From positions 1 to 55,761 of the IMG/VR virus record IMGVR_UViG_3300033148_004574: a stretch of DNA of 55,761 nucleotides; one strand, 5' to 3'. Origin of the DNA: a virus. Below are positions 1-54,797 of the stretch, piece after piece. The notes beneath the pieces were generated by a model. It had not been told where the DNA came from. It ran no database searches and saw nothing but the letters and a program-made list of their open reading frames with translations. The first letter of the stretch is position 1, and each line of letters opens with the position of its first letter. The translations under genes and the position numbers were made by a program.

Positions 1-49
1 ATTGCTAGAACCCCAGGGGCGGGTATCTCGATTGCAGTAGATCGAGGCA
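1..49. repeat. 49-bp terminal direct repeat
   Basis: Bases 1-49 are identical to 55713-55761, and the same 49-mer occurs a third time at 54871-54919. It lies in the middle of the repeated small helical gene described at 52798, 54794 and 55636. The match at both ends suggests a circular or circularly permuted genome. Because a third copy exists, the overlap could also be an assembly break at a repeat. Confidence 0.9.
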
Positions 50-157
50 CTGTCCGAGAAGCTGGGCAGCCAGGCGCGGAGCTGGAGGCAGAGCGGGACG
101 CGAGAAGATATGGGGAAGGACAGAGAAGCAGTGCCTGGAGAGGCAGGGAGGGAATGA
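41..157 (+). pseudogene. 3' half of the repeated small helical protein, after an amber codon
   Basis: After the TAG at 38-40 the frame stays open to TGA at 155-157. It encodes a near match (IEALSEKLGSQARSW...) to the C-terminal half of the intact protein at 52798-53178. If the genome is circular, this is the tail of the copy starting at 55636, interrupted only by a CAG-to-TAG change. The TGA overlaps the ATG of the nucleotidyltransferase at 154, so the remnant may still matter for translational coupling. There is no start codon of its own, so it is probably not made as a separate protein. Confidence 0.6.
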
Positions 158-1083: not shown

Positions 1084-1486
1084 AAAGCGGTCCCGGATCG
1101 AGGTGGTGCCGGTGATTGGCACCGATAACGTCGCCGTGCGGATGCCGCGCGAGAGATGGCAAGAGCTGGCGATGTTTGACGAGGTTCTTGAGGCCCTCAT
1201 CAACACCGTCAATCAGGCGTGCCAGGTGAAGGTCGAGGACGGCAAGTGGATCATGGACCATATGGCCTTGAGCACCTACGAAGACGCGCTGTTCTTGCTG
1301 GAGCGTATGGGATACGCCAGAGAGATCGGGCACCGGCAGTATGAGCTGTTCTGGGTGAAGCAAGACGAAAGGATGACGCGTGGTCGAGACGAAGGGCGAG
1401 CCGATGGGGACCAAGGCGGCGGTGGCGTTCCTCCTGCGCATGGTGGCGGAATGGCACAGGAAGGAGCGAAGCGGTGTGCAAGCTGA
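1055..1486 (+). CDS. Hypothetical protein
   Basis: 143 aa from ATG 1055; a GTG at 1040 is an in-frame alternative. ATG 1055 is preferred because GGAG at 1042-1045 sits at a usual distance. The start overlaps the end of the nucleotidyltransferase, which indicates translational coupling. The first 110 residues look like a small alpha/beta domain. The tail is Gly-, Arg- and Glu-rich and overlaps the next small gene. I do not recognise the family. Confidence 0.6.
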   Translation: MSEQPPVYGKKRSRIEVVPVIGTDNVAVRMPRERWQELAMFDEVLEALINTVNQACQVKVEDGKWIMDHMALSTYEDALFLLERMGYAREIGHRQYELFWVKQDERMTRGRDEGRADGDQGGGGVPPAHGGGMAQEGAKRCAS

Positions 1487-1578
1487 CGGAGATCGGGGCT
1501 GAGGCCATCTGTTGTGCCGCGCTGTGCTGGGCGCTGGGCGAGCGTGAGGTCGAAATTGTCAATGAGCACCAGGGATAG
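1474..1578 (+). CDS. Small Cys-rich hypothetical protein
   Basis: 34 aa from GTG 1474, preceded by AAGGAG at 1461-1466 with a 7-nt spacer. It overlaps the end of the previous gene and the start of csf1. It carries four cysteines (one CC pair) and a helical look. The ribosome site and the coupling are the main support, and no function is visible. Confidence 0.4.
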   Translation: MCKLTEIGAEAICCAALCWALGEREVEIVNEHQG

Positions 1579-2416
1579 AAGGTTCGCGACTCAGATGCTT
1601 TACTCCGCAGCCGGGCGGCCAGCAATAGCTGGCATTGAGCCGCATAGCGGGCGTTGCATTATCTGTGGCCGATCAATTTCATCTGGCGCACGCGCAGTAT
1701 TCCCCGACACGTTCATGGACTATGACAAGTTCATGGCGCCGGGAGAGACGCATATCTGTGACGCTTGCCTGTTCTCCATGACCGAGCGATCGGAAGATCT
1801 CGCGCTGCGTGTGGGCAAGGATAAACCACAGTGTATGCGTAACTACTCGCATTTCGTGCTCAGCGGCGATTGGCTGCCATTGAGCAAGGGGCAGAAGCGC
1901 GAGCAATATGAGACGCTCCTGAAAAAACCGGAGCTGGCTGTCATTGCGGTGAGTGGCCAGAAGCACCTGGTATTCCGCGCGCAACCGGGGACGTGGCAAG
2001 TGGAGGAACATCACGTGGTGCCGGATATTGCGAGGTTGCAGAGAATGACGGTCTGCTTGCAACCGTTATATGATGGTGGATTCAGCAAGGCAGAGATTGA
2101 GAGCGGCAATTATCGCTCGTATCGCATCCGGAAATACGGGGTAGATCGTTGGTATCACGATGACTTGCCGCTACGGACATGGCGCGGGAGTTCGCTTTTT
2201 GAGCTGGCGGTCTTTCTATTGCAGAAGGGGGATATCGGTGGAGGAGACGATTCGGGACAAGTGTGTAGTGCTGGCCTGGGCGCTGTGGCGCGGGATGGAC
2301 AGCGACTACAAGCGCAAGTACGCGCGGGTGATCTGGGACCAGTTTCAGGTCAGGATCGCGGGCGAGGCACAGACGACCAACAGCCTGAGCAAGTACGTCA
2401 ATCAGCTTTGTTCTAA
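1562..2416 (+). CDS. csf1: Type IV-B CRISPR effector large-subunit-like protein Csf1
   Basis: 284 aa as read. A zinc finger of two CxxC pairs (CIIC near residue 25 and CDAC near 60) lies in the N-terminal region, as in the Csf1/Cas8-like subunit of type IV systems. Its position immediately before cas11, csf2 and csf3 supports the call. The start is ATG 1562 or ATG 1595, both with plausible purine-rich sites. The last 60 or so codons (2238-2416) run out of frame over the start of cas11 and look like low-complexity shadow translation, so the native C-terminus was probably near residue 225. Family members bind the guide RNA end and organise the effector complex. Confidence 0.78.
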   Translation: MSTRDRRFATQMLYSAAGRPAIAGIEPHSGRCIICGRSISSGARAVFPDTFMDYDKFMAPGETHICDACLFSMTERSEDLALRVGKDKPQCMRNYSHFVLSGDWLPLSKGQKREQYETLLKKPELAVIAVSGQKHLVFRAQPGTWQVEEHHVVPDIARLQRMTVCLQPLYDGGFSKAEIESGNYRSYRIRKYGVDRWYHDDLPLRTWRGSSLFELAVFLLQKGDIGGGDDSGQVCSAGLGAVARDGQRLQAQVRAGDLGPVSGQDRGRGTDDQQPEQVRQSALF

Positions 2417-2642
2417 GCTTGGCGTTGGACAACTCGGGGATGGTGACGAGCTAGCAGAACTAGATGCGATTCTCAATTGTGGCCAGGATCGTGCGATTCT
2501 GCGCGCCATGCGTGAGGACACGGCGCTGATTGTGCTCAAGGTGCGGCTCCTAAATGAGGAACGAAAAGAGGAACGCGAGCAACGCTATCAACTTTGGCTG
2601 GAGGAGCAAGGGATTGGGGAGGATATCCAGGATGCGGAATGA
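2238..2642 (+). CDS. cas11: Type IV-B small subunit (Cas11-like)
   Basis: 134 aa from GTG 2238, with a GGGG-type ribosome site about 7 nt upstream. The protein is almost entirely helical and charged, as expected for the small subunit that lines the belly of class 1 effector filaments. It sits between csf1 and csf2, the type IV-B order. It overlaps csf1 by 179 nt and csf2 by 11 nt. The identification rests on size, predicted helicity and position, because small subunits share little sequence. Confidence 0.65.
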   Translation: MEETIRDKCVVLAWALWRGMDSDYKRKYARVIWDQFQVRIAGEAQTTNSLSKYVNQLCSKLGVGQLGDGDELAELDAILNCGQDRAILRAMREDTALIVLKVRLLNEERKEEREQRYQLWLEEQGIGEDIQDAE

Positions 2643-3615
2643 GTGGTATGCGGGGGTGGTGACGGCCCTATCGAGTATCAGCCACATTGGGCCGGACGAG
2701 CGCGGCAAGCAGAGCGTGACAAGCTACTTTCGGCGAGAGAAGGTTGTACAGCCAGATGGCATGATAGAAGAGGTGCCGGTGGTTTCTGGCAACGGTATGC
2801 GCGGTCTCTTGCGCGACTGCGGTATGTGGCAGATGTGCCGTGCACTCGGCTATGGAGAGGAAGGTGGCAAGGTAAGCGGGCTGTCGCTGGAAGCGTTTCA
2901 CTTTCTCTTTTCGGGCGGCACGCTCACCAGCACAGGCGCGCGGGCTTTGGATGTAGGTCAGGCGCGTAGAATCCGTGAGCTACTCCCCCTCGTAGGGCTT
3001 CTGGGCGGTGCGGTGGGGAACCAGATCATGCCGGGGAAACTGCGAGTCGGCAAAATGCTCATAATCTGTCAGGAGACGGCACACCTTCTACCGACGTGGT
3101 GCCATACTGAGCCGCTGCTTTCGTTCTATGATTGTGTGCAGCAGGAGGCATTTACGCGCAAAGATGACGAGAAGGACGAGCGGCTACGGCAGATGATCGC
3201 GCCCGAAACGCGGAAATTGATTGAGGCCTCTACTGTTGCTAAGCAGCGCACGAAAGGAACCGACGCCGAAAAGCCGGACGCCGAGGTCGGGCAACACCAG
3301 CAAATGCGGTACTTTGTCGAGACCCTTGCCGCGGGGACACCGTTTTTCTGGGAGTTGGCTCTTGAAGATGTGACAGATGTGGAATACGATGCTTTCTGGT
3401 CGATGATGGTTGCTTTTGCACAGAAGCCATACATCGGCGGCAAGGCGGGTACGGGTCATGGCAAGGTGCAGATCGATTTTCGCAACTGGTTACGCATTGA
3501 TCCGAACCTAGCCGAGACCGAGCGGCTACCGGACGTGCCGCTTGGCACGCGCTATGAGACGCATTTGAAAGAGCATGGTGATGCTATTCGTGAGATGCTG
3601 GCGAAATGGGACTAG
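2632..3615 (+). CDS. csf2: Type IV-B CRISPR backbone protein Csf2 (Cas7 family)
   Basis: 327 aa from ATG 2632, with GGGGAGG 9-10 nt upstream. It has RAMP/Cas7 features: an N-terminal strand and loop (TALSSISHIGPDE), a PVVSGNGMRGLLRD segment near residues 45-60, a GNQIMPGKLRVGK segment near 125-140 and a C-terminal glycine-rich loop (GGKAGTGHGK). These match the Csf2 family of type IV systems. Csf2 polymerises along the guide RNA to form the effector backbone. It overlaps cas11 and csf3, so the subunits are translationally coupled. Confidence 0.85.
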   Translation: MRNEWYAGVVTALSSISHIGPDERGKQSVTSYFRREKVVQPDGMIEEVPVVSGNGMRGLLRDCGMWQMCRALGYGEEGGKVSGLSLEAFHFLFSGGTLTSTGARALDVGQARRIRELLPLVGLLGGAVGNQIMPGKLRVGKMLIICQETAHLLPTWCHTEPLLSFYDCVQQEAFTRKDDEKDERLRQMIAPETRKLIEASTVAKQRTKGTDAEKPDAEVGQHQQMRYFVETLAAGTPFFWELALEDVTDVEYDAFWSMMVAFAQKPYIGGKAGTGHGKVQIDFRNWLRIDPNLAETERLPDVPLGTRYETHLKEHGDAIREMLAKWD

Positions 3616-4274
3616 AACCACTCCAGGTACGGGCGTGGCTGCGCGCGCCGGTAGTCAGTGACGACTACCTACCACTGGATGGCATCTTGCTCTATCAGGC
3701 GAAGCGGCATGTGCTGATGCCAGAAGCGGCGCGCTTCCCCGGCGTGACGGCGGAATCGGCTAGCGTGCGTGTGCCGTTGGCCTGCCATGGTCATCACGCT
3801 GAGCATTGGTACTATGCCTGCTCTTTTGCGCAGTGGTCACAGCCAGTGGCATACGGCAAAGACCATTGGTCGAAGCGGCTAGACACGGCGCACATCGGCA
3901 TTGTTGATCTTGGCCGCAAGAGCAAGGTCCAGATCGGAAAAGGGCGATATCGCAGTTATCACATGCCAGTATTCTACCGTTCAGCTCTATCCGTTCACTG
4001 GTATTGTGTTGGCGATGCGGAGGATATCCGCGAGCTATTAGCCGACGTGTGGGCGATTGGCAAGAAGACGGCTCAGGGCTGGGGGCGCGTGGCGCGTTGG
4101 GAGGTGAGACCCTGGCCGACGGACTGGAGTGTGGAATGCAAAGGACGGCTCATGCGCGCGATCCCAGTCGGAGATGGCGAGGAACGTAACGCTCAAGTGC
4201 GTTTGCACGGCTTTCGCCCGCCCTACTGGAAAAGGGAGAATCAGACCGCATGCTGGATGCCAGCAAAGGCCTAG
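3606..4274 (+). CDS. csf3: Type IV-B CRISPR protein Csf3 (Cas5 family)
   Basis: 222 aa. The start overlaps the csf2 stop by 10 nt. The N-terminus (RAWLRAPVVSDDYLPLDGIL) and the glycine-rich loop KKTAQGWGRV near residues 155-165 are typical of Csf3, the Cas5-like subunit that caps the 5' end of the guide. No cas6/csf5 follows, so guide processing must come from elsewhere or not occur. This agrees with type IV-B, where no array or Cas6 is normally present. Confidence 0.82.
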   Translation: MGLEPLQVRAWLRAPVVSDDYLPLDGILLYQAKRHVLMPEAARFPGVTAESASVRVPLACHGHHAEHWYYACSFAQWSQPVAYGKDHWSKRLDTAHIGIVDLGRKSKVQIGKGRYRSYHMPVFYRSALSVHWYCVGDAEDIRELLADVWAIGKKTAQGWGRVARWEVRPWPTDWSVECKGRLMRAIPVGDGEERNAQVRLHGFRPPYWKRENQTACWMPAKA

Positions 4275-4711
4275 CGCTCTGTACGTGCGCGCTTTGCGGC
4301 CGCGGTTGTCCGGCGTGGCGGTTCTTCTGCTACTGGTGTAAGCAAAGGTGGGGACTCCTGAAACCATTTGGCCAGTGGCCGGAGTGGGCAAGAGAGCTAA
4401 AGCGCGACCATCAGCGGCGGCGGTATCACGAGCGGCAGATGCTAGAGCATGTGACGTTTTTCGCGTCGATGGAGGCTATGGAGCGTGCGCTGGGGCGGGA
4501 GGTGATTGCCGAGCCTGAGCCGATAGCGCCGCCGGAGCTGCGTGCGCGCGCAGATGCTGTGTTGGCCATACTGACCGAGAGACAACAAGACGCCGTGTTG
4601 TTGCGGCTGGGGTGCGGTCTGTCGTGGAGTGAGACGGGCCGAGCGTTGGGCGTAACGTATAGGGCTGCACAGGGCCTTGTGCGACGCGCTATGGAGCGAT
4701 TGGTAGCATGA
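4250..4711 (+). CDS. Zinc-ribbon plus sigma70 region 4-like HTH protein
   Basis: 153 aa from ATG 4250, overlapping csf3. The N-terminus has two cysteine pairs (CALC at about residue 13; CYWC at about 27) forming a likely zinc ribbon, then a WPEWAREL helix. The C-terminal 55 residues (LTERQQDAVLLRL ... WSETGRALGVTYRAAQGLVRRAM) are a clear sigma region 4-like helix-turn-helix. The zinc-ribbon/WPxWA module recurs alone at 7447-7704, next to a separate sigma4-like gene at 7182. It sits between csf3 and the cysH-like gene, so it may control the operon or a late promoter (inference). Confidence 0.65.
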   Translation: MLDASKGLALCTCALCGRGCPAWRFFCYWCKQRWGLLKPFGQWPEWARELKRDHQRRRYHERQMLEHVTFFASMEAMERALGREVIAEPEPIAPPELRARADAVLAILTERQQDAVLLRLGCGLSWSETGRALGVTYRAAQGLVRRAMERLVA

Positions 4712-5517
4712 AAGGAGGTGACAACCATGCAGCAGCCACGCAAGCAAGAGGGCGGTCCAGGCGGCGGCTAGCCGTTACGGAAGTGGATTGCCTTCGGGGG
4801 CGGCTCCGGGCTTTTACGCGCAAGGTCGAGCGTGCCTTGGACGTGATCGCTGGGGCTGCCCCGCCCGTCGGCATTGCTTTCAGCGGGGGCAAGGATTCGA
4901 CGGTTGTGCTAGATCTCGTGCGGCGTGTTTTCCCGGATGCGCCGGCTGGGTTCTTTGATAGTGGCGCGGAACTGCAAGACACGCTGGATCTGGTAGCTGC
5001 CACAACGAATGTTCAGACGATCCCGGCACTTGACGGAGGTCTGATCGAGTTGTGCCGGCAAAATGGCTATTGGGGGCACGAGCCGGAGGCGGATGATCCG
5101 CAGCCGGTAGACTTTGCGGAGGCATTGATCTATGCCCCGGCGCGCGCGTTTGTTGAGCGGAACGGGTTGCAAACCGTTGCTCTTGGTTTGCGTGCGGGGG
5201 AGTCGGTGGGCCGCCGGTTCAATGCCATCAAGAAGGGCGAGCGCTATCGAGTCGCGGACGACGTAGCGCATCTTTGCCCAATTCAATGGTGGTCAGAGGA
5301 CGACGTATGGGCCTACATCGCGACGCGGGAATTGGCATACAACGCGGCATACGACAAGATGACTGCGCTGGGGGTCCCGCGCAAGCATCAGCGTATCTGT
5401 ACGAATCTGGGGACCGATGCGGCATCCTTTGGCCGATACGTATACCTGCGCCAGATAGACCCCGAGCTCTGGAATCGTCTGGCGGGGGAGTTCCCACTGA
5501 TTCGCAAGTATACGTGA
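4708..5517 (+). CDS. CysH-like PP-loop protein of the type IV-B locus
   Basis: 269 aa. The PP-loop SGGKDST near residue 55 binds ATP in adenine-nucleotide alpha-hydrolases and PAPS reductases. The C-terminal ECGLH-type catalytic cysteine motif of true PAPS reductases is not visible, so simple sulfonucleotide reduction is unlikely. CysH-like genes are the known companions of type IV-B systems, with unsolved function. ATG 4708 overlaps the previous stop, and GTG 4783 is an alternative. A perfect ribosome site (AAAGGAGGTGA) lies just inside the frame at 4711-4721, ahead of a 14-codon ORF in another frame starting at 4727, so the true start is uncertain. Confidence 0.75.
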   Translation: MKGGDNHAAATQARGRSRRRLAVTEVDCLRGRLRAFTRKVERALDVIAGAAPPVGIAFSGGKDSTVVLDLVRRVFPDAPAGFFDSGAELQDTLDLVAATTNVQTIPALDGGLIELCRQNGYWGHEPEADDPQPVDFAEALIYAPARAFVERNGLQTVALGLRAGESVGRRFNAIKKGERYRVADDVAHLCPIQWWSEDDVWAYIATRELAYNAAYDKMTALGVPRKHQRICTNLGTDAASFGRYVYLRQIDPELWNRLAGEFPLIRKYT

Positions 5518-5535
5518 TCGGAGGCGAGGTGAGCG

Positions 5536-5637
5536 ATGAGGGACAACCTGTTCGCGCCGCGGGCTACACTGTGTCGCTGTGTGCTGAGCTTCCTGCGTGA
5601 GGCGGGCCGCATTTTGAGCAGGTTCGGGGGCGCATGA
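5536..5637 (+). CDS. Small hypothetical protein
   Basis: 33 aa from ATG 5536, preceded by GAGGTGA. The stop overlaps the ATG of the next gene (ATGA at 5634-5637), which favours real translation. The sequence is basic and Leu/Cys-containing with no recognisable motif. Confidence 0.4.
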   Translation: MRDNLFAPRATLCRCVLSFLREAGRILSRFGGA

Positions 5638-5930
5638 ATCATTCGCTGTCGGCCCTTGGGCGATACGAGGAGCCGCCGCTTGGGGCAGGTGACGGACGCG
5701 ACTGGCTCCGGCACGAGCTGGCCTTCTGGGATTACGTTTCCGACGATTGCCGGCGGTTTCTTGACGTCCTCCCCCTGCGGCAGCGGAATGCGGTTGTGGC
5801 GGTGTACGGCTATCGCTACACGCTGGACCAGGCGGCCTACAAACTGGGCGTATCGCCGCGCACACTACAGCGTGACATAGCATGCGCGGCGGAGCTGGCA
5901 GAGAGGCGAGAAGAGCTACGACCGGGGTGA
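5634..5930 (+). CDS. Sigma70 region 4-like HTH protein
   Basis: 98 aa. Residues 40-85 (LPLRQRNAVVAVYGYRYTLDQAAYKLGVSPRTLQRDI) form a sigma region 4-type helix-turn-helix. It is coupled to the preceding small ORF through ATGA and is the last gene of the left-end operon. It is the second of three sigma4-like proteins in the window (4250, 5634, 7182). Phages use such proteins as transcription activators, but the target here is unknown. Confidence 0.6.
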   Translation: MNHSLSALGRYEEPPLGAGDGRDWLRHELAFWDYVSDDCRRFLDVLPLRQRNAVVAVYGYRYTLDQAAYKLGVSPRTLQRDIACAAELAERREELRPG

Positions 5931-5971
5931 TCGTGGCTCTTCTGGTTGGGCCGTCGCGAAGACTCTGGATG

Positions 5972-6055
5972 TTAGGTGCTGTAGATCTCTTTGTCCAGCG
6001 GCGCCGTCCCGAGCAAGGGTTCGATAAACGTGATCATTATCTCATAGCGGTCCAT
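5972..6055 (-). pseudogene. Truncated phage gene, N-terminal fragment
   Basis: 27 codons read leftwards from ATG 6055, with a strong site (AAAGGAGAA) upstream. The sequence has the ITF.EPLLGT...KEIYST pattern that opens a family of small phage proteins, which normally continues well past this point. Here it stops at TAA 5972-5974 at the convergent junction with the left operon. I read it as the stub of a longer gene cut by recombination (inference; family recalled, not searched). Confidence 0.4.
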
Positions 6056-6596
6056 GGTTCTCCTTTCGCAGCGCCTCAATATCTGAGCGCAACACGCGCT
6101 GACGTTTCTGGGGGTTGGGTTCCGTGATGTCAGGGTAGGCCATGATATCGCCCCGCCCGATGCGGTGACTGATGGCCTGTGTGGTGATGCCCAGCAGCCC
6201 GGCGGCCTCTGAGATGGTGATCAACTCGTCGCCCTGCACCTTGGCGAACGCCGCGGCAACCATCGCGCCCAGGTCGGTCTTCCAGAAGGCGCGTGGTATC
6301 TCGTATGACCCCAAGAGCGGCGATGAGAACAGCCGCTCCATCAGGTCTTGTATCCCTTCGTAAACGACTCCTCGATTCCACTCTGTCGGTTGTATGTCCC
6401 CGCTGGCCATACGCGCGATCTCCGCCAACTGGTCGGCCAGTGCGGAGGCGTACAGCACGGTCTCGGGAACGTGGGTGATTTGAATGCCGATAAACGCCTG
6501 CTCCATCTCCCAGCGGCGGCGTCGGTAGTATTGTAGGATGAACGCCTTGATGGCCTCGCGGTACTGCTCCGGTGTACGGCTCAAAACGTCTGTCAT
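6042..6596 (-). CDS. HTH protein with MerR/excisionase-like C-terminal domain
   Basis: 184 aa from ATG 6596, with AGGAGG 4 nt upstream; longer starts lack a ribosome site. Residues 130-175 (ITISEAAGLLGITTQAISHRIGRG ... LRSDIEALR) form a winged-helix DNA-binding domain of the MerR/excisionase type. The N-terminal 120 residues are helical and unfamiliar. It lies downstream of the 6951 gene in a minus-strand operon and overlaps the truncated gene at 6055. It is a likely regulator. Confidence 0.6.
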   Translation of the reverse strand: MTDVLSRTPEQYREAIKAFILQYYRRRRWEMEQAFIGIQITHVPETVLYASALADQLAEIARMASGDIQPTEWNRGVVYEGIQDLMERLFSSPLLGSYEIPRAFWKTDLGAMVAAAFAKVQGDELITISEAAGLLGITTQAISHRIGRGDIMAYPDITEPNPQKRQRVLRSDIEALRKENHGPL

Positions 6597-6627
6597 GATG
6601 CCTCCTACTCCAAAGCCCGCCTGAACT

Positions 6628-6951
6628 TCAGCTTTCCCAATCCCACGCCGAGCCGTCTTCCAACATCTTCGACCACTCTGCGATAGTGAATCGCGCCAAC
6701 TCGCGCGTAGGCCGGATGCGGTAGCCATCGTAGATTTCCGCTAGCACCTCGCCTTCAAGAATGACGAGATCGTCATCGTTATCCATCGCGTCCCAGGCCC
6801 CACCGAAACGGGATCCGCCGTCGCGACCGTCGGGACTCATTGAAACGGCCAGGCCTTCGCTTGCTCCATCGCCACCATCTGCGCTGTTCCAGGTTCTCAT
6901 CTCGTCGAAGCTGATGCCCTTGGTCTGGACCCTGAAAAAATGCTTTGCCAT
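6628..6951 (-). CDS. Hypothetical protein
   Basis: 107 aa from ATG 6951, with GGGAGG 7 nt upstream. It is an acidic protein with no recognised family. The middle is Gly/Asp-rich, followed by a strand-rich part (LVILEGEVLAEIYDGYRIRP). It is the first gene behind the strong promoter at 6988-7016. Confidence 0.6.
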   Translation of the reverse strand: MAKHFFRVQTKGISFDEMRTWNSADGGDGASEGLAVSMSPDGRDGGSRFGGAWDAMDNDDDLVILEGEVLAEIYDGYRIRPTRELARFTIAEWSKMLEDGSAWDWES

Positions 6952-6987
6952 CTCGTGCCTCCCTCTGTCTCTCTGCCTTACATTGAT

Positions 6988-7016
6988 ATCATATCATAAC
7001 GTGCTCACGTTGTCAA
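6988..7016 (-). promoter_or_regulatory. Strong sigma70-type promoter with operator palindrome
   Basis: Read leftwards: TTGACA (7016-7011), a 17-bp spacer, then TATGAT (6993-6988), an almost perfect consensus. The spacer holds an inverted repeat AACGTG-CT-CACGTT (6998-7011) that overlaps the -35 edge, as an operator would. It drives the minus-strand genes from 6951 down to 5972. Confidence 0.75.
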
Positions 7017-7105
7017 GAGATTCTGAGAATGCAACGAAACCTGCAACCCGCCCGATTCTGCAAGGCATCCTGCACGGATTCTGCCGGATCCCGATCAGAA
7101 TCCTG

Positions 7106-7141
7106 TGTCGTGTTTGTCGTGTTTGTCGCGTCTGTCGTGCC
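7106..7141. repeat. Four 9-bp tandem repeats
   Basis: Four consecutive units near TGTCGTGTT (two exact, two with one or two changes) lie 41-76 bp upstream of the sigma4-like gene start at 7182. The stretch 7017-7100 just before also repeats GATTCTG three times. Such arrays upstream of a regulator are often protein-binding sites, but no protein can be assigned. Confidence 0.6.
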
Positions 7142-7181
7142 AGGTGGTGCTACGCTGCGAGAGAGCACAATCGGAGGTGAC

Positions 7182-7400
7182 ATGCACACATACACATACG
7201 ATCCACGCGACCAGCTCGACAGCCGGATCGACCTGCAACGTGCCGTGGCCAGGTTGGACGCCATCGACCGGACGATTCTGGAGATGACGGTCGCCGGGTA
7301 CACGCAGGCTGAGATCGGAGAGCGGGTGGGAATGACGCATCAGGCGGTCGCGCTGCGGCTGGCATCAGTTCAGGGCAAGTTGGTGTGTTGGTTGACATAA
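7182..7400 (+). CDS. Sigma70 region 4-like HTH protein
   Basis: 72 aa from ATG 7182, with a very good site (TCGGAGGTGA). Residues 22-70 (LDAIDRTILEMTVAGYTQAEIGERVGMTHQAVALRL) are a sigma region 4/LuxR-type helix-turn-helix. There is no other sigma domain. With the zinc-ribbon gene just downstream, it mirrors the two halves of the fused protein at 4250-4711. Confidence 0.65.
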   Translation: MHTYTYDPRDQLDSRIDLQRAVARLDAIDRTILEMTVAGYTQAEIGERVGMTHQAVALRLASVQGKLVCWLT

Positions 7401-7424
7401 CGCCTTGCAAAAGAGGGCGTTTTT
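7399..7424 (+). terminator. Probable Rho-independent terminator
   Basis: AACGCCTT pairs with AGGGCGTT across a 7-nt loop (8 pairs, one G-T), followed by five Ts. It overlaps the stop codon of the sigma4-like gene. Confidence 0.55.
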
Positions 7425-7446
7425 GTGCTGTAGAAAGTGAGGGGGT

Positions 7447-7704
7447 ATGGCGTCTTTGGGCCGGTGCATGATCTGTGACAAGCGGATTGCGTGTGCGCAT
7501 GTCATATGTGCTGGCTGCGAGCGCGACTATGGGTTGGGTGGGCCGCGACGAGACTGGCCCGCTTGGGCCAAGGCCCTCTATCGAGAGTATCGCCAACAGC
7601 GGCGGTTGGAGAAGGATCGTCTTGCACACGAAGATGCCACCGAGCGGGGGGACGCAGTCTATAACATCTCTTGCTACGGGAACTTCAATGACGACGGGTG
7701 TTGA
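7447..7704 (+). CDS. Zinc-ribbon protein
   Basis: 85 aa from ATG 7447, behind GAGGGG. Two CxxC pairs (CMIC near residue 7, CAGC near 21) precede a DWPAWAKALYREY helix that matches the N-terminal module of the 4250 protein (WPEWARELKRDH). The sigma4 part is absent here and is encoded separately just upstream. It probably binds nucleic acid or protein through the ribbon; the function is unknown. Confidence 0.55.
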   Translation: MASLGRCMICDKRIACAHVICAGCERDYGLGGPRRDWPAWAKALYREYRQQRRLEKDRLAHEDATERGDAVYNISCYGNFNDDGC

Positions 7705-7822
7705 TTCTCGGGTTGCAGCGCTCCGCGAGGGGCGGGCGTGGCCGATCTTTACGAGACAAGAGCCGCGGGCAACGGGTGATGCCTGGACGCGGCTGCTTGC
7801 TCTCTTGGATGACGCGAGCTGA
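7688..7822 (+). CDS. Small hypothetical protein
   Basis: 44 aa from ATG 7688, overlapping the zinc-ribbon gene by 17 nt. It has an amphipathic helix-rich sequence and no recognised family. Support is limited to the coding look and the overlap. Confidence 0.4.
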   Translation: MTTGVDSRVAALREGRAWPIFTRQEPRATGDAWTRLLALLDDAS

Positions 7823-8094
7823 CCGGCCCAGAGCCGGCACAGTATACGGCCGCGTCATGCGCGGCTAGCCGAGTTGTTTTCCGAGTTTCTGACCGTTCAT
7901 CAGCGAGGGGGCGTCGTCACTAAGACGTTTGCGCGAGGTGCGGATGACTGCCGCGTAAACATCGCGCGCGCTAGCGACCTGGCGTGGACGGTCAAAAGCC
8001 CGTAAGGCCCGGAGTGCCTGGCCGTCACAGCGGTGACCTAGAGACCGTGACAGACTGAAATCGGGTGCCGGGGTGGCCCAGGGTGGAGGTGGAC
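7823..8094 (+). other. 272-bp gene-free stretch with several hairpins, possible noncoding RNA
   Basis: No credible ORF is seen. It holds several potential hairpins: CCGGC/GCCGG close to 7825, GACGG/CCGTC enclosing nested GGCC-type pairs near 7990-8030, and GTCAC/GTGAC near 8025-8040. The clustering suggests a structured leader or small RNA before the 8095 gene. I cannot assign a family. Confidence 0.3.
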
Positions 8095-8487
8095 GTGACT
8101 GACCACGCCGATGACCTGGTACGGTATGGCCCCGACGCCGTTGCTACGCGCGTGATCCAACGCCAGGGTGGCGCGTTAGAGTGGTTGGGGGCGGACGCGA
8201 TGATTACTGACTTCTACGCTCAGCCGCCAGCCGAGGCAGAAGAGTACGGAGGGCCGGTCATCGTTGAGAGTGTGGAAGAGATGGCCGTGCCTGTAGTTGA
8301 CGTTGGCAGGGATGCCAGTAGCGAGACGACGGCCATGTGGCAGCCCGAGGCAGACGACACCATGAGCTTGCCCGAGGGATACGTGCAGGACGCGGTGGAG
8401 CGGGTGCTTGCGCCCAGCAGGGCCGTCGTGATCAAGGAGGTTCTGCGCGAGGACGCGGAGCTGTGGCAGAGGCTGGCGGATGCCTAA
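8095..8487 (+). CDS. Hypothetical acidic protein
   Basis: 130 aa from GTG 8095, with GGAGG 5 nt upstream; an in-frame start at 8065 is less likely. The protein is acidic and has no motif I recognise. It precedes the HNH and methyltransferase genes on the way to the packaging genes. Confidence 0.5.
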   Translation: MTDHADDLVRYGPDAVATRVIQRQGGALEWLGADAMITDFYAQPPAEAEEYGGPVIVESVEEMAVPVVDVGRDASSETTAMWQPEADDTMSLPEGYVQDAVERVLAPSRAVVIKEVLREDAELWQRLADA

Positions 8488-8546
8488 GCGGCTGGTTGCC
8501 GCATTGCGGCGGCGCGCTCGGTTCTTGCGGGCGCGGTGACGCTGGC

Positions 8547-8855
8547 ATGACCCATGCCCAGCTTTGGCTTGCGGTGCTGGAGCGCGACGACAGGACGTGC
8601 CAGGATTGCGGCTGTTATGCGGTCGAGACGCACCACATTGTTGGCAGGCGACGCGAGGGCGCATGGGACGTGCGCAACATGATCACGCTGTGCCCAATGT
8701 GCCATCGTGGCCGCGACAAGGGCGCCGGCGCGCACACACACGCGGCGCGGCTGCGGCACATCGCGTTGCTGCGGGCCAAGCATGGGTACGACTACAGCGA
8801 CATGGGCGGGCGGTGGACGGAACTGGTGAGGGAGCTTGGCGAAACAAATCACTGA
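8547..8855 (+). CDS. HNH endonuclease
   Basis: 102 aa. Two zinc-binding CxxC pairs (CQDC, CPMC) frame the HNH core: THHIVGRR with tandem His, Asn in VRNMITLC, and a final His in MCHRG. This is the compact HNH nuclease that phages often encode near terS/terL and that can assist DNA packaging. It sits 1.3 kb before terS. It overlaps the methyltransferase gene by 20 nt. Confidence 0.8.
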   Translation: MTHAQLWLAVLERDDRTCQDCGCYAVETHHIVGRRREGAWDVRNMITLCPMCHRGRDKGAGAHTHAARLRHIALLRAKHGYDYSDMGGRWTELVRELGETNH

Positions 8856-10128
8856 TATCGCGGACCTGACACCCGACGCGAAGAACGCCAACCGGGGCAC
8901 AGAGCGCGGGCGGTATATGATCGAGCAGAGCCTCCGCAAGCTGGGCGCTGGTCGGTCCATCGTCGTTGACGCTGACGGCCAAGTGGTTGCGGGCAACAAG
9001 ACGCTGGAAGCCGCCGCCGAGCTGGACCTGCCGGTGCGTGTGGTGCGGACCAACGGCCAGGAGTTGGTAGTCGTCCAGCGCGAGGACTGGCACCTCGACG
9101 CGGACGGCCCGGCGAGAGAGTACGCCTACGCCGACAACAGAGCGAGTGAGATTGGCCTGGACTGGGATCCCGCGCAGGTGGCGTTGGACCTTGACGCCGG
9201 CCTGGACCTGTCGGACATGTTCCGCGAGGACGAGCTGCAAGCGGTGCTGGAGCAGGCGGCGAATGAGATGCTTGCGGCGGATGGTGCCGAAGCACCGGAG
9301 CCACAGATCGACAAGGCCGCCGAGTTGCAGGAGAAGTGGCAGATCGAGCGTGGGCAGATATGGGAGATCCCGAGCAAGACCGTCAACGGCAGATGTCATC
9401 GTGTTATGTGCGGCGACAGCACAAGCGCAGATGATGTGGCGCGGTTGTATGGCGATGCCCGTCTCTCTGTTGTGTGGACTGATCCGCCATATGGTGTGAG
9501 CTATGGCAAAAAGAACCGCTATCTCCAAACGATCGGTCGGGCCGATCGTTTGCTTGGCGATATCGAGGGTGATGACCTGAAGCCCGAGCAGGTTTTTGTG
9601 TTAGTGCGCGATGCGTTGGCCGCGCTGGCGACGCTCGCGGTGCCGGGCGCGGTGGCATATGTAGCGGCCCCGCCGGGGCCGCTACACCGCTTCTTCATCG
9701 ATGCCATGAATGCGTCGGGCTTCCAGTATCGGCACCAGCTCATTTGGTTGAAAAACCAGCTAGTCTTTGGGCGCAGCGATTACATGTACAAGCATGAGCC
9801 GATCTTGTATGGCTGGCTGCAGAATGGGGCGCATTTCTTCGAGCCGCGAACCAGCAACTGCTCGGTGTTTGAGTTTGACCGGCCTCGGGCCTCAAAGATG
9901 CATCCGACCGAGAAGCCGGTGGAGCTGGTCGCTGCGATGATTCAGAATAGCTGTCAGCCCGGAGATACTGTGGGCGAGGCTTTTGCGGGTAGCGGGACGG
10001 ATTTCGTTGCTGCTGAGCGGACGGGTCGCCTTTGCTATGGCATGGAGATTGAGCCGAAGTACGTTGCCGTCACGCTCCAGCGGCTTGTCGATATGGCCCT
10101 AGAGCCTCGGTTGGCGGGGACGAGCTGA
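8836..10128 (+). CDS. ParB-like domain fused to a DNA N4/N6 methyltransferase
   Basis: 430 aa from TTG 8836 behind GAGGGAG. Residues 1-110 resemble the ParB/sulfiredoxin nuclease-like domain often joined to phage methylases (VVAGNKTLEAA). Residues about 210-430 are an amino-methyltransferase: the catalytic DPPYGVSY comes first and the SAM-binding AFAGSGTDF near the C-terminus, which is the beta-class order. It probably methylates adenine or N4-cytosine in phage DNA to evade restriction. Confidence 0.8.
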   Translation: MAKQITDIADLTPDAKNANRGTERGRYMIEQSLRKLGAGRSIVVDADGQVVAGNKTLEAAAELDLPVRVVRTNGQELVVVQREDWHLDADGPAREYAYADNRASEIGLDWDPAQVALDLDAGLDLSDMFREDELQAVLEQAANEMLAADGAEAPEPQIDKAAELQEKWQIERGQIWEIPSKTVNGRCHRVMCGDSTSADDVARLYGDARLSVVWTDPPYGVSYGKKNRYLQTIGRADRLLGDIEGDDLKPEQVFVLVRDALAALATLAVPGAVAYVAAPPGPLHRFFIDAMNASGFQYRHQLIWLKNQLVFGRSDYMYKHEPILYGWLQNGAHFFEPRTSNCSVFEFDRPRASKMHPTEKPVELVAAMIQNSCQPGDTVGEAFAGSGTDFVAAERTGRLCYGMEIEPKYVAVTLQRLVDMALEPRLAGTS

Positions 10129-45647: not shown

Positions 45648-45956
45648 ATGCAGCAGGTCCGGGAAAGCCGGGAGGATGGGATGGGCGGGGATCGTAGGTT
45701 ACTCGAAACGAGGGGAGGATCCATGGATTTCCGAGTGAGGCTCCGCACGATGCGTGCGGTGCAGGGAGTGAGTCAGCGGAGCCTGGAAAAGCTGACCGCC
45801 ATTCCCAACACATACCTGTCCGACTTTGAGACAGGGAAGAGCTACCCCAACGCTGACTGGGACCAGCGTATCCGCGAGGCCCTGGGCTGGACCCCCGAGG
45901 TGGATGCAGCGCTCGACCAGTTGGCGGCGGCGCTGGGCGAGAAGGTAGCGGTATGA
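45648..45956 (+). CDS. Cro-like HTH protein
   Basis: 102 aa from ATG 45648 behind AAAGGAGGGG. A second in-frame ATG at 45723 also has a good site (GGGGAGG) and would give 77 aa starting right at the domain. The HTH (VQGVSQRSLEKLTAIPNTYLSDFETGK) is of the XRE class. It is the first gene of the rightward early operon, opposite the CI-like gene. Confidence 0.7.
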   Translation: MQQVRESREDGMGGDRRLLETRGGSMDFRVRLRTMRAVQGVSQRSLEKLTAIPNTYLSDFETGKSYPNADWDQRIREALGWTPEVDAALDQLAAALGEKVAV

Positions 45957-45961
45957 CCCCC

Positions 45962-46087
45962 ACACAGAACAAGGCCCGGGCTTGCACCCGAGCCTTGCCG
46001 AGGAAACAGGACAGCTCCCTGTGTCCTCCCTTTGCTGGACGCTCCGCGAACGCGGTTCGTGTCTCCAGCCGTGTGATAAGCATCCCC
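45962..46087 (-). ncRNA. Structured small RNA A, 5' end antisense to tRNA-like 2
   Basis: Transcribed leftwards from the promoter at 46088-46115. The predicted RNA starts GGGGAU, and its next 15 nt (complement of 46067-46081) are perfectly complementary to the anticodon arm of the tRNA-like gene at 46128-46212. The body folds into GCUGGA/UCCAGC with an inner CCGCG-UU-CGCGG hairpin, then AGGACA/UGUCCU. It ends in the CAAGGC...GCCUUG hairpin (45970-45997), shared with small RNA B. It is about 125 nt with no convincing ORF. Confidence 0.6.
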
Positions 46088-46115
46088 ATTATAGCAGAGC
46101 ACTTGCAGAAGTCAA
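46088..46115 (-). promoter_or_regulatory. Promoter of small RNA A
   Basis: Read leftwards: TTGACT (46115-46110), 16 bp, TATAAT (46093-46088), followed by GGGGATGC. The 14-mer TATAATGGGGATGC is identical at the small RNA B promoter. Confidence 0.7.
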
Positions 46116-46127
46116 TGGGGGCGAGGA

Positions 46128-46212
46128 CGGAGGGGAGCGGAGTTGAACCGCATGCGCAGGGCGCACAGCACGCTTATCACACGGCTCCTGGTACCGACCA
46201 GAGTTCCCCTCC
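46128..46212 (-). tRNA. Class II-type tRNA-like gene (tRNA-like 2)
   Basis: Read leftwards: a 7-bp acceptor stem GGAGGGG/CCCCTCC, a D arm with CTC/GAG and GGTCGG loop, and a long variable arm TGCGC/GCGCA. The T arm has loop TTCAACT and 4-5 pairs, and the next base is G. The anticodon arm has T33, possible anticodon GAT and A37. However, its 3' strand has one extra base, so a bulge is needed to pair it. An isoleucine anticodon in a long-variable-arm tRNA is abnormal. CCA is not encoded. Its own promoter lies at 46220-46248. Confidence 0.6.
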
Positions 46213-46219
46213 GTTCACC

Positions 46220-46248
46220 ATTGTATCACCTGGCACTGCCGGATGCAA
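46220..46248 (-). promoter_or_regulatory. Promoter of tRNA-like 2
   Basis: Read leftwards: TTGCAT (46248-46243), 17 bp, TACAAT (46225-46220). Transcription would begin within a few bases of the tRNA 5' end. Confidence 0.65.
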
Positions 46249-46276
46249 TGGTGTTACGGAGGGGGCTCGGGACGTC

Positions 46277-46447
46277 ACAAAGAACAAGGCCCGGATGGTA
46301 TGCACCCGAGCCTTGTCTGGGAACCCAAAGAGCGCCTCCTCCCATGAGCCCGCGTCACAACGGACTGCAACGGGCTTGGTGCCGCTCTTTGGCCCCGGTC
46401 GTCGATTCGCCCTGTTTGTTCAGGGTGAAGGCAACTCTCGCATCCCC
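46277..46447 (-). ncRNA. Structured small RNA B, 5' end antisense to tRNA-like 1
   Basis: Transcribed leftwards from the promoter at 46448-46476. It starts GGGGAU, then 11 nt (complement of 46431-46441) are perfectly complementary to the anticodon arm of the tRNA gene at 46485-46558. The body has a CCCUG-AACAAA-CAGGG hairpin and a perfect 10-bp stem CCAAAGAGCG/CGCUCUUUGG enclosing AGCCCG/CGGGCU. It ends in the same CAAGGC...GCCUUG hairpin (46285-46315) with a UUGUUCUUUG tail. It is about 170 nt. Confidence 0.6.
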
Positions 46448-46476
46448 ATTATAGCACAGCCGGTGATGCTGTGCAA
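46448..46476 (-). promoter_or_regulatory. Promoter of small RNA B
   Basis: Read leftwards: TTGCAC (46476-46471), 17 bp, TATAAT (46453-46448). The spacer and -35 contain a GCACAGC/GCTGTGC inverted repeat that could be an operator or the 3' hairpin of the upstream tRNA transcript. Confidence 0.7.
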
Positions 46477-46484
46477 CGTGCAGG

Positions 46485-46558
46485 TGCCCCGGGTGGGAGT
46501 CGAACCCACGGCCACAAGCTTCGCGAGAGTTGCGTTCTATCCACTGAACTACCGGGGC
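46485..46558 (-). tRNA. tRNA gene with irregular anticodon stem (tRNA-like 1), possible anticodon CGC
   Basis: Read leftwards: acceptor GCCCCGG/CCGGGGC (7 bp), D arm GTTC-AGTGGATA-GAAC, 5-nt variable loop, T arm GTGGG-TTCGACT-CCCAC, discriminator A. CC follows but not the full CCA. The anticodon loop CTCGCGA has T33 and possible anticodon CGC (Ala). The 3' strand of the anticodon stem has one extra C, so the arm is 18 nt instead of 17. The D loop looks Arg-like, and there is no G3-U70, so charging identity is unclear. Confidence 0.75.
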
Positions 46559-46568
46559 ACCTGGACCC

Positions 46569-46597
46569 ATTCTAGTCACGAGCGACGAGAGATACAA
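46569..46597 (-). promoter_or_regulatory. Promoter of tRNA-like 1
   Basis: Read leftwards: TTGTAT (46597-46592), 17 bp, TAGAAT (46574-46569). Its -35 overlaps the ribosome site of the plus-strand gene at 46610. Confidence 0.65.
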
Positions 46598-46609
46598 GGA
46601 GACATGATC

Positions 46610-46900
46610 ATGTTGGGCACACCCGAGCTGGACGCCTACCAGGCGCTGGTTGACGAGTATGACGACGTACCCAAGGCCGACGAGCCGGCGCATATCGAGG
46701 ACATGATGGAGAGCCGGCTCGCCGCCGAGGTGGAGGCAGAGCGGAACGTTCGTTTTTTCCGGATGTACCGCGAGGGTGGGGTGAGCGAGGCAGACGCGGC
46801 GCACATAACGGACTATGGCCTGTGCGCGCGCTGGCTCGCCCGAAGGCTAGGCCGCCCCCCGACGGACCGAGAGGTGATGCAGAGGATGGCAATGATATGA
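46610..46900 (+). CDS. Hypothetical acidic protein
   Basis: 96 aa from ATG 46610, chosen because AAGGAG at 46596-46601 is 8 nt upstream; ATG 46604 is too close. It is helical and charged, and the C-terminal part (DYGLCARWLARRLGRPPTDREVM) may be DNA-binding. It is the first early gene after the RNA cassettes. Confidence 0.5.
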   Translation: MLGTPELDAYQALVDEYDDVPKADEPAHIEDMMESRLAAEVEAERNVRFFRMYREGGVSEADAAHITDYGLCARWLARRLGRPPTDREVMQRMAMI

Positions 46901-51210: not shown

Positions 51211-51547
51211 CGTGCCAGACGTGGCGCTGATGCGCGCAGCGGTGCGGTGCCTCAACGAATGCACGTTCTGGCCGACGGTGGCGGAGGTGCGCAAGGCGGT
51301 TGGGGTTGTGGCCCCGTCGGCACTGATGCCACTAGTGACGCCAGCGCCCGAGGTAGACGAGGCCAGGCTAGCGGAACAGATACGGGAGATGTGGGCGATG
51401 CAGCCGGATGCGGGACCGGGCTGGTATCAGATATGTGCGGGGTACGCAGTTCTCGGGACACGAGCGGAAGCCCTGCAAGCGTGGAGGGCATGGTACATAC
51501 CGGGGGCAGAGGAGCCGGAGGCATTGCGAGAAGGGGAGGCAAGATGA
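51101..51547 (+). CDS. Putative helicase loader / inhibitor-like protein
   Basis: 148 aa from ATG 51101, overlapping the initiator gene by 110 nt. The helical N-terminal part (LYELALADVPDVALMRAAVRCLNECTFWPTVAEVRKAV) has the pattern of phage helicase loaders of the G40P-loader type. Position next to the initiator supports it. Confidence is limited because no helicase gene is seen in this window; the host helicase would be the partner. Confidence 0.5.
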   Translation: MATPEAVGKAFALWMANWPTRQVPDEAPRLYELALADVPDVALMRAAVRCLNECTFWPTVAEVRKAVGVVAPSALMPLVTPAPEVDEARLAEQIREMWAMQPDAGPGWYQICAGYAVLGTRAEALQAWRAWYIPGAEEPEALREGEAR

Positions 51548-52395
51548 GACCAAGTAAGATCGGGTGGACCGACTACTCGGGGGGGATGCTCAATTTCGTG
51601 GTGGGCTGTACGCCGGTGTCTCGTGGCTGCGCCTATTGCTATGCGAGGACGATCTATGGGCGGCATGATAAGGATTCCCCGATCGTCCAGTGCCATGAGG
51701 ACAAACTGGAGCGGTTGCTGGAGCGCGACTTTCCCATAGACAGCCGGAAGCACCCGGGGCATCCCCCTATGGCCTTCGTCTGCGATACGGGCGACCTCTT
51801 CCATGAGGACGTGCCAACCGAGTTCATCACACATGCCTTTGAGGTCATGGCTGCGCGGCAAGACGTGACCTGGCAGATACTCACCAAGCGCCCGCAGCGG
51901 GTTGCAGACGCGCTGTATGGCTCGAGCTACCTTGGCGGTGGCGACTATCTTCCGTCTGTCTGGCTCGGCGTATCCGTCGAGGACCAGGTCACAGCAGACA
52001 AGCGAATCCCGCTGTTGCTGGAGACGCCGGCGGCGGTGCGGTTCGTGTCAGTGGGGCCGATGCTGGAGCCGGTGGACCTGAGCAAGTGGCTGGGGCCGGT
52101 ATGCGGCGAGACCTTTTGTGAGCAGTGCGGCGATTGTCTCGCCTGCTACGGGGAGGATCCCTGTGTCAATGGGGGGGAGCATGTATGCCCCCCGTTTCTT
52201 GACTGGGTGATCTGCGGTGGGGAGAGCGGCCCGATTCGACGCCCGTTTGACGTGGCCTGGGCGGTGGACCTGTACGGGCAATGCAAAGAGGCGGGCGTAC
52301 CGTTCTTCGGGAAGCAGGATTCTGGGCTGTATCCGGGGAAGCCGTTGCTGATTGATGGTCGCGAGATCAAGGAGTGGCCGGAGGAGGTGGTGTGA
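51544..52395 (+). CDS. DUF5131 family protein (phage Gp37/Gp68-like)
   Basis: 283 aa from ATG 51544. WTDYSGGMLNFVVGCTPVSRGCAYCYA with three cysteines, CDTGDLFHEDVP, WQILTKRPQRV and DWVICGGESGP are hallmarks of the Gp37/Gp68 family. These are radical-SAM-like proteins of unknown reaction common in phages and hosts. Extra cysteine pairs near residues 185-215 (CEQCGDCLAC) may bind a second cluster or zinc. Confidence 0.8.
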   Translation: MRPSKIGWTDYSGGMLNFVVGCTPVSRGCAYCYARTIYGRHDKDSPIVQCHEDKLERLLERDFPIDSRKHPGHPPMAFVCDTGDLFHEDVPTEFITHAFEVMAARQDVTWQILTKRPQRVADALYGSSYLGGGDYLPSVWLGVSVEDQVTADKRIPLLLETPAAVRFVSVGPMLEPVDLSKWLGPVCGETFCEQCGDCLACYGEDPCVNGGEHVCPPFLDWVICGGESGPIRRPFDVAWAVDLYGQCKEAGVPFFGKQDSGLYPGKPLLIDGREIKEWPEEVV

Positions 52396-54000: not shown

Positions 54001-54087
54001 ATGTGCGGGATTCTGCTGGAAAAGGTCGGTGACGTGCCGGATGCGATGCGATGCTCGATATGCAGGGAAGGCTACGGGGAGCTGTGA
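54001..54087 (+). CDS. Small protein with a CxxC pair
   Basis: 28 aa from ATG 54001, behind GGGAGGGG some distance upstream. MRCSICREGYGEL at the C-terminus resembles half a zinc ribbon. The stop overlaps the next gene. The 30 bp upstream resemble bases 108-153 at the left end, part of the same repeated module. Confidence 0.35.
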   Translation: MCGILLEKVGDVPDAMRCSICREGYGEL

Positions 54088-54797
54088 CCTACATCCTCGA
54101 TGACAACGCTATCGTTAGTTATGGTGGCGGGGTGAACAGTACTGGATTGGTGATTCACCTGGTCAATATGAGCTGGCGCGGGCGGATCATCATGGCAGAT
54201 ACCGGCGCCGAGTGGCCCGAAACGGAGGAGTTTGTCGCGCTGTTTGAGCGCGAATGGCTGGCTCCGCGGGGACTGTGCGTTGAGCACGTCGGAGCGGAAT
54301 GGCGAGCGGGGGGTCGGAAGAAATGGGCTTTGCCGGAATACTGTGAGAAGCGCAATATTATTCCGTTGGCATCGCGGCGCTGGTGTACCATCGAATACAA
54401 GGTCTCTCCTATCGCTCGCTGGTGCGAGGCGCATGGCGTGACGACACAATACCTTGGCATATCAGCGGATGAGAGCCACCGGATGCCGGATGCTGTGAGA
54501 CCTCTCTGTGATGACTGGCTGACACGGCGCGATTGTGTGCGGATCATCAAGGCTGAAAGGTTGCCGATACCTCCTAGATCAAAGTGCTGGCTATGTACGT
54601 TTCAGACGGAAGCGGAGTGGCGGCGATTGTGGCAAAGGCATCCCGATCTATATGCGCGAGCGGAGGCGCTAGAGGCGGGAGCGAAGCGGACGGGTACAGG
54701 ACGGTATCGTGCCACGCTGGACCCTGGCGGCAAGGTGACGCTAGCAGACAGGCGAGCGAAGTTTGAGCGCGAGATGGTGCTGGAGGCGCCAGGATGA
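54084..54797 (+). CDS. PAPS reductase-like PP-loop protein
   Basis: 237 aa from GTG 54084; ATG 54051 is an alternative. SYGGGVNSTG near residue 12 is the PP-loop, DTGAEWPET near 40, RRWCTIEYKV near 103 and CWLCTF near 170. These are features of phage-type phosphoadenosine-phosphosulfate reductase family enzymes. It is distinct from the CysH-like protein at 4708, although in a circular genome the two are only about 6 kb apart. Such enzymes may activate a base or sulfur donor in DNA or RNA modification; the substrate is unknown. Confidence 0.72.
   Translation: MTYILDDNAIVSYGGGVNSTGLVIHLVNMSWRGRIIMADTGAEWPETEEFVALFEREWLAPRGLCVEHVGAEWRAGGRKKWALPEYCEKRNIIPLASRRWCTIEYKVSPIARWCEAHGVTTQYLGISADESHRMPDAVRPLCDDWLTRRDCVRIIKAERLPIPPRSKCWLCTFQTEAEWRRLWQRHPDLYARAEALEAGAKRTGTGRYRATLDPGGKVTLADRRAKFEREMVLEAPG

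Follow-up and report, generated by a model that had tools for sequence, protein, structure and literature searches.

Two tandem phage cassettes in which a tRNA-like RNA is followed by a putative small RNA antisense to its anticodon arm

In the T-box riboswitch a tRNA is recognized through three anticodon pairs together with its NCCA end, 3'ETS-leuZ is a tRNA-derived small-RNA sponge, and CreTA is a CRISPR-repressed RNA toxin acting on the tRNA pool, in which the crRNA-like RNA CreA matches a promoter. To our knowledge, there is no account of a natural small RNA that is dedicated, by a matching sequence, to the anticodon arm of a tRNA-like RNA encoded next to it; a full-text search of part of the literature for small RNAs antisense to anticodon arms found none. 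The phage C4 RNA, which has a length of roughly 77 nt, is processed by RNase P and acts in an immunity system by pairing with target RNAs (PMC5320573). The 8/4 allo-tRNAs, whose commonest anticodons include an Ile anticodon, are charged mainly with Ser or Ala, and it has been suggested that the irregular allo-tRNAs which are non-functional in translation are parts of mobile elements or of toxin-antitoxin systems (PMC7609411).

The DNA considered here is the IMG/VR record IMGVR_UViG_3300033148_004574, whose 55,761 bases (about 61% G+C) were analysed as a whole and are referred to below as the window. Its gene set is that of a temperate tailed phage (terminase, portal, major head protein, tape measure and replication protein), and a serine recombinase and divergent HTH regulators are also encoded. 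Two cassettes, A and B, are encoded on the minus strand and are flanked by plus-strand reading frames, that of an HTH gene (45723-45956) on one side and a 98-codon ORF (46604-46900) on the other. Both follow the common plan that had been recognized in the initial annotation, which is borne out by the sequence, the promoter scores, the folds and the repeats: a modest promoter, a tRNA-like RNA, a strong promoter, a structured small RNA and a GC-rich hairpin that is common to the two units. The arrangement, found in a single phage, is real, highly non-random and apparently undescribed. A plus-strand frame of 315 codons (45953-46900) is open over the cassettes, but its codon usage scores -0.13 bits per codon, where the terminase gene and both genes flanking the cassettes have +0.25 to +0.30. 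Since the codon usage of the open frame differs from that of the phage genes, the region is best read as noncoding, and a protein-coding reading of this frame, which encodes peptides antisense to the tRNAs, was rejected.

The promoters of the tRNA-like RNAs each match 8 of the 12 consensus positions. That of tRNA-like RNA B (46569-46597, minus strand) consists of TTGTAT (46597-46592) and TAGAAT (46574-46569) separated by 17 nt, with a predicted +1 at 46562, and that of tRNA-like RNA A (46220-46248, minus strand) reads TTGCAT-17-TACAAT, with a predicted +1 (46213) that is the first base of the acceptor helix. The promoters of the small RNAs are stronger and have an extended -10 TG; that of small RNA A (46088-46115, minus strand) reads TTGACT-16-TATAAT and matches 11/12, and that of small RNA B (46448-46476, minus strand), which can be read as TTGCAC-17-TATAAT or as TGCACA-16-TATAAT, matches 10/12. 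Both are among the nine best sites in the whole window, and the sequence that they share, initially given as a 14-mer, is identical over the 17-mer TGCTATAATGGGGATGC. The -10 box is followed in each case by GGGGAT (46447-46442 in B and 46087-46082 in A, minus strand), which had been placed within the small RNA, ahead of the antisense segment. The antisense starts 7 nt past TATAAT in both units, and because this distance puts +1 on the first antisense base, GGGGAT is probably the promoter discriminator rather than RNA, and the antisense is probably the 5' end of the small RNA. By the consensus spacing, transcription would thus probably start at the G of GC, the first antisense base in both units.

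The hairpins at the 3' ends lie at 46285-46315 in small RNA B, where TTCTTTG follows, and at 45970-45997 in small RNA A, where TTCTGTG follows (both minus strand). They are delimited by the direct repeats D3 and D5 and by the fold, and have in common the GC-rich element CAAGGCTCGGGTGCA...CGGGCCTTGTTC. That this hairpin is shared was confirmed; it is terminator-like, as initially described, but the U-tract is weak and the element is absent from the listing of a terminator pattern scan.

The tRNA-like RNA of cassette B (46482-46562, minus strand) is a standard cloverleaf with the anticodon CGC and an extra C in the 3' strand of the anticodon stem. It matches the tRNA family RF00005 with 56.8 bits at 46485-46558 (cut-off 29), and ARAGORN calls it tRNA-Ala(cgc) at 46483-46558. 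Its acceptor helix can be extended from 7 to 11 bp if outer pairs read from the sequence are included, and CCU is encoded in place of CCA; neither of the tRNA-like RNAs encodes CCA. The tRNA-like RNA of cassette A (46128-46213, minus strand) is of the tRNA-Sec or allo-tRNA type, with the anticodon GAU (Ile) and a bulged U in the anticodon stem. It is missed by ARAGORN, does not reach the RF00005 cut-off, and scores 42.1 bits (E 5.9e-07) against the tRNA-Sec family RF01852, which is under the cut-off of 47. Its minimum-energy fold is a cloverleaf (-43.3 kcal/mol) with an acceptor helix of 8-9 bp, a 4-bp T stem, a 6-bp D stem with a 4-nt loop and a long variable arm, and in these four elements it has the 8/4 architecture of the allo-tRNAs (PMC7609411). 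The discriminator base, read from the sequence, is G, the anticodon stem is bulged rather than regular, and Ser-type features are found together with the Ile anticodon. The gene calls of the initial annotation were thus upheld by family search and folding, B as an RF00005 cloverleaf and A as a tRNA-Sec-type cloverleaf under the cut-off, and the extra base that had been noticed in the 3' strand of both anticodon stems is seen in both Rfam alignments. These RNAs are probably not ordinary decoding tRNAs.

The predicted small RNAs are about 118 nt (A, 45964-46081, minus strand, with a predicted start at 46081) and about 157 nt (B, 46285-46441, minus strand, with a start at 46441 deduced from the -10 box) in length. 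Their folding energies are -58.9 (mononucleotide-shuffle z -4.0) for A and -78.7 (z -4.7) for B. In the predicted folds the 5' end is unpaired over 12 nt in A, where this single-stranded tail precedes three hairpins, and over 6 nt in B. The bodies of the two RNAs are unrelated, and only the promoter, the placement of the antisense and the hairpin are held in common. A reading of them as group I introns, with the antisense as internal guide, was rejected, as they are too short (118 and 157 nt) and have no Rfam match.

Each small RNA begins with a perfect complement of its neighbour. In A the 15-nt segment GCUUAUCACACGGCU (46067-46081, minus strand) is complementary to 46172-46186 (minus strand), which are positions 26-40 of the tRNA-like RNA, and in B the 11-nt segment GCGAGAGUUGC (46431-46441, minus strand) is complementary to 46523-46533 (minus strand), positions 26-36, which comprise base 26, the 5' strand of the anticodon stem and the loop through the anticodon. 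The lengths and the register of these matches, from position 26 through the anticodon, had been reported before and were reproduced by sequence comparison. Shuffled controls place the observed lengths far above chance: when the 5'-terminal 40 nt of each small RNA were shuffled and compared to the partner tRNA, a match as long as that observed arose in 0 of 5000 shuffles for A and in 3 of 5000 (0.0006) for B. The claim that the pairing is specific to each cassette, the targeted stretches having unrelated sequences, agrees with the swapped combinations of small RNA and tRNA, in which the matches reach just 6 and 7 nt, and in the phage genome the best match of both antisense seeds is the partner tRNA, with no other match exceeding 10 nt. 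Among 778 distinct tRNAs called by ARAGORN in the fetched loci, an 11-nt antisense to the tRNA's own anticodon arm within 150 nt downstream occurs once, in tRNA-like RNA B of the window itself, and the runner-up has 10 nt; tRNA-like RNA A, with its 15 nt, stands outside this control set because ARAGORN misses it. A 12-nt antisense to a phage tRNA-Met (L274/L223) was discarded as a candidate, since it lies 300 nt distant in apparent coding sequence.

The predicted energetics of pairing are favourable. Duplex formation yields -26.4 (A) and -19.3 (B) kcal/mol, while opening costs 13.6 and 7.4 kcal/mol, and the net energy is about -13 and about -12 kcal/mol, respectively. When the bulge is deleted, the tRNA arm is predicted to cost 10.2 instead of 6.7 kcal/mol to open in A and 5.7 instead of 3.9 kcal/mol in B, so that both arms are predicted to be cheaper to invade because of the bulge in the anticodon stem. 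Nested cofolding yields a gain of -8.6 kcal/mol for B and of -1.4 kcal/mol for A, which is no better than that of shuffled guides; the method is unable to describe pairing of the loop in a molecule whose acceptor stem is closed. Small RNA B also contains an 8-nt complement (ACCGGGGC, 46392-46399, minus strand) to the 5' acceptor strand of tRNA-like RNA B, which is collinear with the anticodon antisense and within chance. Sequence, statistics and predicted energetics thus lend good support to the part of the initial interpretation which holds that the small RNAs would pair specifically, each with its own partner tRNA.

The comparison with described systems shows both likenesses and differences. 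As in the T-box, the anticodon loop of a tRNA would be recognized by RNA, but here through 11-15 continuous pairs, and an Rfam search gave no T-box family match. As with 3'ETS-leuZ sponges and phage anti-sRNAs, an RNA from a tRNA locus is paired with a small RNA through the seed of the latter, but here a complete tRNA-like RNA would take part through its anticodon arm, and there are two such cassettes in parallel. As in CreTA, an adjacent pair is found in a genome with a CRISPR effector, and the guide-bearing small RNA matches its neighbour, but the match is to the body of the tRNA and there are no repeat sequences. The C4 RNA of P1 and P7 is likewise a small structured phage RNA that pairs through exposed loops, and it is an RNase P substrate, as the tRNA-like RNA would be; C4, however, blocks an mRNA ribosome-binding site, whereas the partner here is a noncoding tRNA-like cloverleaf with its own promoter. 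An Rfam search of the cassettes gave no C4 match up to E=5, and no SD-preceded ORF was read in the paired region. tRNA-like RNA A shares with the allo-tRNAs the 8/4 plan, the long variable arm, the 6-bp D stem and the Ile anticodon, but it is phage-borne, its anticodon stem is bulged and it has a cognate antisense RNA, whereas the review of these tRNAs (PMC7609411) makes no mention of antisense. The sequence suggests that the cassettes embody a mechanism, not described so far, for switching off or capturing tRNA-like molecules.

The explanation that we tentatively favour, while holding it as a possibility rather than as the expected outcome, is that a trans-acting antisense RNA captures and silences its partner tRNA-like RNA, so that each module would be an antisense-controlled effector. 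Each cassette would give rise to two separate RNAs, the tRNA-like RNA and, from the stronger promoter just downstream, a small RNA in excess whose first 11-15 nt are complementary to the 5' half of the anticodon arm of its partner. The small RNA would make contact with the exposed anticodon loop through its 5' tail and go on to pair with the 5' strand of the bulged stem, and the captured tRNA-like RNA would be blocked from charging, decoding or client binding. In its free state, the tRNA-like RNA would be a non-cognate or mischarged tRNA, or a decoy, which disturbs translation or sequesters a tRNA-binding enzyme, and the module would behave as an RNA toxin-antitoxin system or a conditional decoy.

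The antisense capture is suggested by the two independent perfect complements, which have the same register and unrelated sequences. Of the marks of a trans-acting antisense RNA, which would be a separate transcript, a predicted promoter of its own and specific complementarity to one RNA are present in the sequence. The modelled structures point the same way, in that the antisense lies at the predicted 5' end with 12 (A) or 6 (B) nt unpaired, the predicted duplex energies compare favourably with the opening energies, the bulge lowers the cost of invasion, and swapped pairs have no specific match. The small-RNA promoters exceed the tRNA promoters (11 and 10 versus 8 and 8 of 12), and this order is as expected for an inhibitor in excess. 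A silenced-effector role is favoured because both tRNA-like RNAs look unlike a regular decoding tRNA, and it is suggested, by analogy, by the 8/4 allo-tRNA plan, the Ser-type features and the Ile anticodon of tRNA-like RNA A. Several points argue against capture: no homologous cassette was found in the collections searched, the bodies of the small RNAs are unrelated, with nothing else conserved that would mark a common mechanism, 11 bp is short for a stable duplex in trans without a helper protein, and the nested cofolding gain for A is almost nil.

The search for homologous cassettes covered viral contigs, GTDB genome contigs, phage and plasmid records and 14 related phage records, sets from which near-identical records may be missing, and among the matches listed no such cassette was found. 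None of the 42 exact 15-mer matches of the common hairpin in viral contigs has the hairpin itself. The promoter 14-mer has at least 120 matches, and among those listed none is followed by an antisense longer than 9 nt; the 17-mer has two unrelated matches, one of them an apparent ordinary tRNA gene behind a consensus promoter. A tRNA T-arm followed by TATAATGGG has at least 119 viral matches, and neither those listed nor the 3 viral and 14 genome matches of a stricter pattern with GGGGA include an anticodon-arm antisense. An Arenibacter match with a 10-nt complement was set aside because it is not in a tRNA. DNA similarity search gave no match in phages and, in plasmids, only an ordinary Azospirillum tRNA-Lys that resembles tRNA-like RNA B. 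The 14 related phage records, chosen by replication protein or TerL, contain no DNA similar to the cassettes, and a promoter-antisense scan of the fetched related phages returned only AT-rich, palindromic or short-range hairpin matches. Two of the related phages carry odd tRNA-like RNAs of their own, neither with an antisense partner. In one (L338, 1645-1805), a tRNA-like RNA with a 14-bp acceptor helix is directly followed by a second, irregular one, and in the other (L339, 2152-2221), a 70-nt RNA behind a TATAAT box matches tmRNA in the tRNA-like domain alone (45.4 bits, cut-off 47).

The direction of control is reversed if the small RNA uses its 5' end as a seed to regulate mRNAs of the host or the phage, and the tRNA-like RNA titrates it as a decoy by way of the anticodon loop. 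The antisense at the predicted 5' end does resemble that of 5'-seed small RNAs, and tRNA-derived sponges such as 3'ETS-leuZ provide a precedent, but both seeds match the partner tRNA best in the phage genome, and the weaker promoter belongs to the presumed sponge. This reading is regarded as unlikely.

There is no obvious terminator between the tRNA and the small RNA, and for this reason a read-through precursor can be envisaged in which the antisense, lying downstream, pairs in cis with the anticodon arm and thereby governs how the transcript folds, is processed by RNase P or terminates, much as an attenuator or P1 C4 would. The two elements lie on the same strand with similar spacing in both units, the cassettes adjoin HTH/repressor genes, and the C4 RNA is a precedent (PMC5320573). 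Such a precursor would, however, leave superfluous a near-consensus promoter whose +1 lies exactly at the antisense, no ribosome-binding site or ORF is seen in the paired region, and neither C4 nor another leader family was found at a credible Rfam score, so that regulation in cis appears decidedly unlikely.

The guide role raised in the initial annotation found no direct support, but the phage does carry a complete type IV-B CRISPR effector operon (1514-5517, plus strand) comprising csf1 (1514-2416), cas11 (2160-2642), csf2 (2554-3615, which matches the solved type IV-B structure 7jhy with E 2.7e-31), csf3 (3606-4274) and the gene of a CysH-like protein (4708-5517). CasCysH has the PP-loop ATPase fold that is also found in tRNA-modifying enzymes. 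The small RNAs could then direct this effector against tRNAs or the genes that encode them, and CasCysH would modify the RNA once bound. Type IV-B loci are without arrays, and the RNA that they use in nature has yet to be established (PMC8175902, PMC7937560); near the csf genes of the phage no CRISPR array was found, there being no direct repeats in 1-9000. Against this, only 6-12 nt are single-stranded ahead of strong hairpins, compared to a 30-nt spacer, there is no crRNA-like handle, the only repeats at the cassettes being the promoter and hairpin elements, the cassettes are about 10 kb distant from the csf genes even on a circular genome, and the fetched flanks (12-20 kb) of five other type IV-B elements contain no tRNA gene. 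The related phages that lack the cassette also lack Csf2, and are uninformative on this point. Guidance of the effector is considered improbable, and its more specific form, in which dedicated array-free guides are aimed at the anticodon arm of the tRNA-like RNAs or of host tRNAs that they mimic, with CasCysH modifying the RNA, marginally more so; if true, it would answer which RNA type IV-B uses and for what purpose.

Other genes of the phage were noted in passing. Small proteins with sigma-70 region 4-like domains are encoded next to the csf operon (4250-4711 and 5634-5930, plus strand). A DUF5131 (Gp37/Gp68) protein is encoded at 51247-52395 (plus strand), and members of this family are also found at a distance of 4-11 kb from the csf genes of type IV-B systems on plasmids of Rhodococcus fascians and Natrinema (L370, L372). 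A second PAPS-reductase-like protein (54051-54797, plus strand), SspD-like by PADLOC, lies between two pentapeptide-repeat proteins.

Just upstream of the type IV-B operon, an RlaP-family RNA-repair nucleotidyltransferase (PF10127; 154-1083, plus strand) is encoded, and the antisense covers the anticodon, so that it might shield or splint an anticodon cut by a host nuclease, with RlaP aiding the repair. This is as improbable as guidance of the effector: in the case of B the antisense stops at position 36 and so would not span a broken loop, which disfavours a repair splint, no RNA ligase was detected among the proteins scanned, and RlaP lies about 10 kb from the cassettes and is absent in nine related phage records. 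Least probable of all is a coincidence, or a neutral by-product of repeated promoter-terminator units beside degenerating tRNA genes, which would fit the single phage, the lack of homologues and the score of tRNA-like RNA A under the family cut-off, but not the shuffle odds, the matching register in both units or the 1 in 778 tRNAs.

The presence in one phage of two unlike tRNAs with two differently matched antisense RNAs would mean that phages can build modular cassettes in which tRNA-like effectors or decoys are combined with antidote RNAs. The cassettes reside in a phage that also encodes an effector of type IV-B, the class for which the natural RNA has been a standing question, and they would allow the reason for the existence of irregular allo-tRNAs to be tested in a concrete way.
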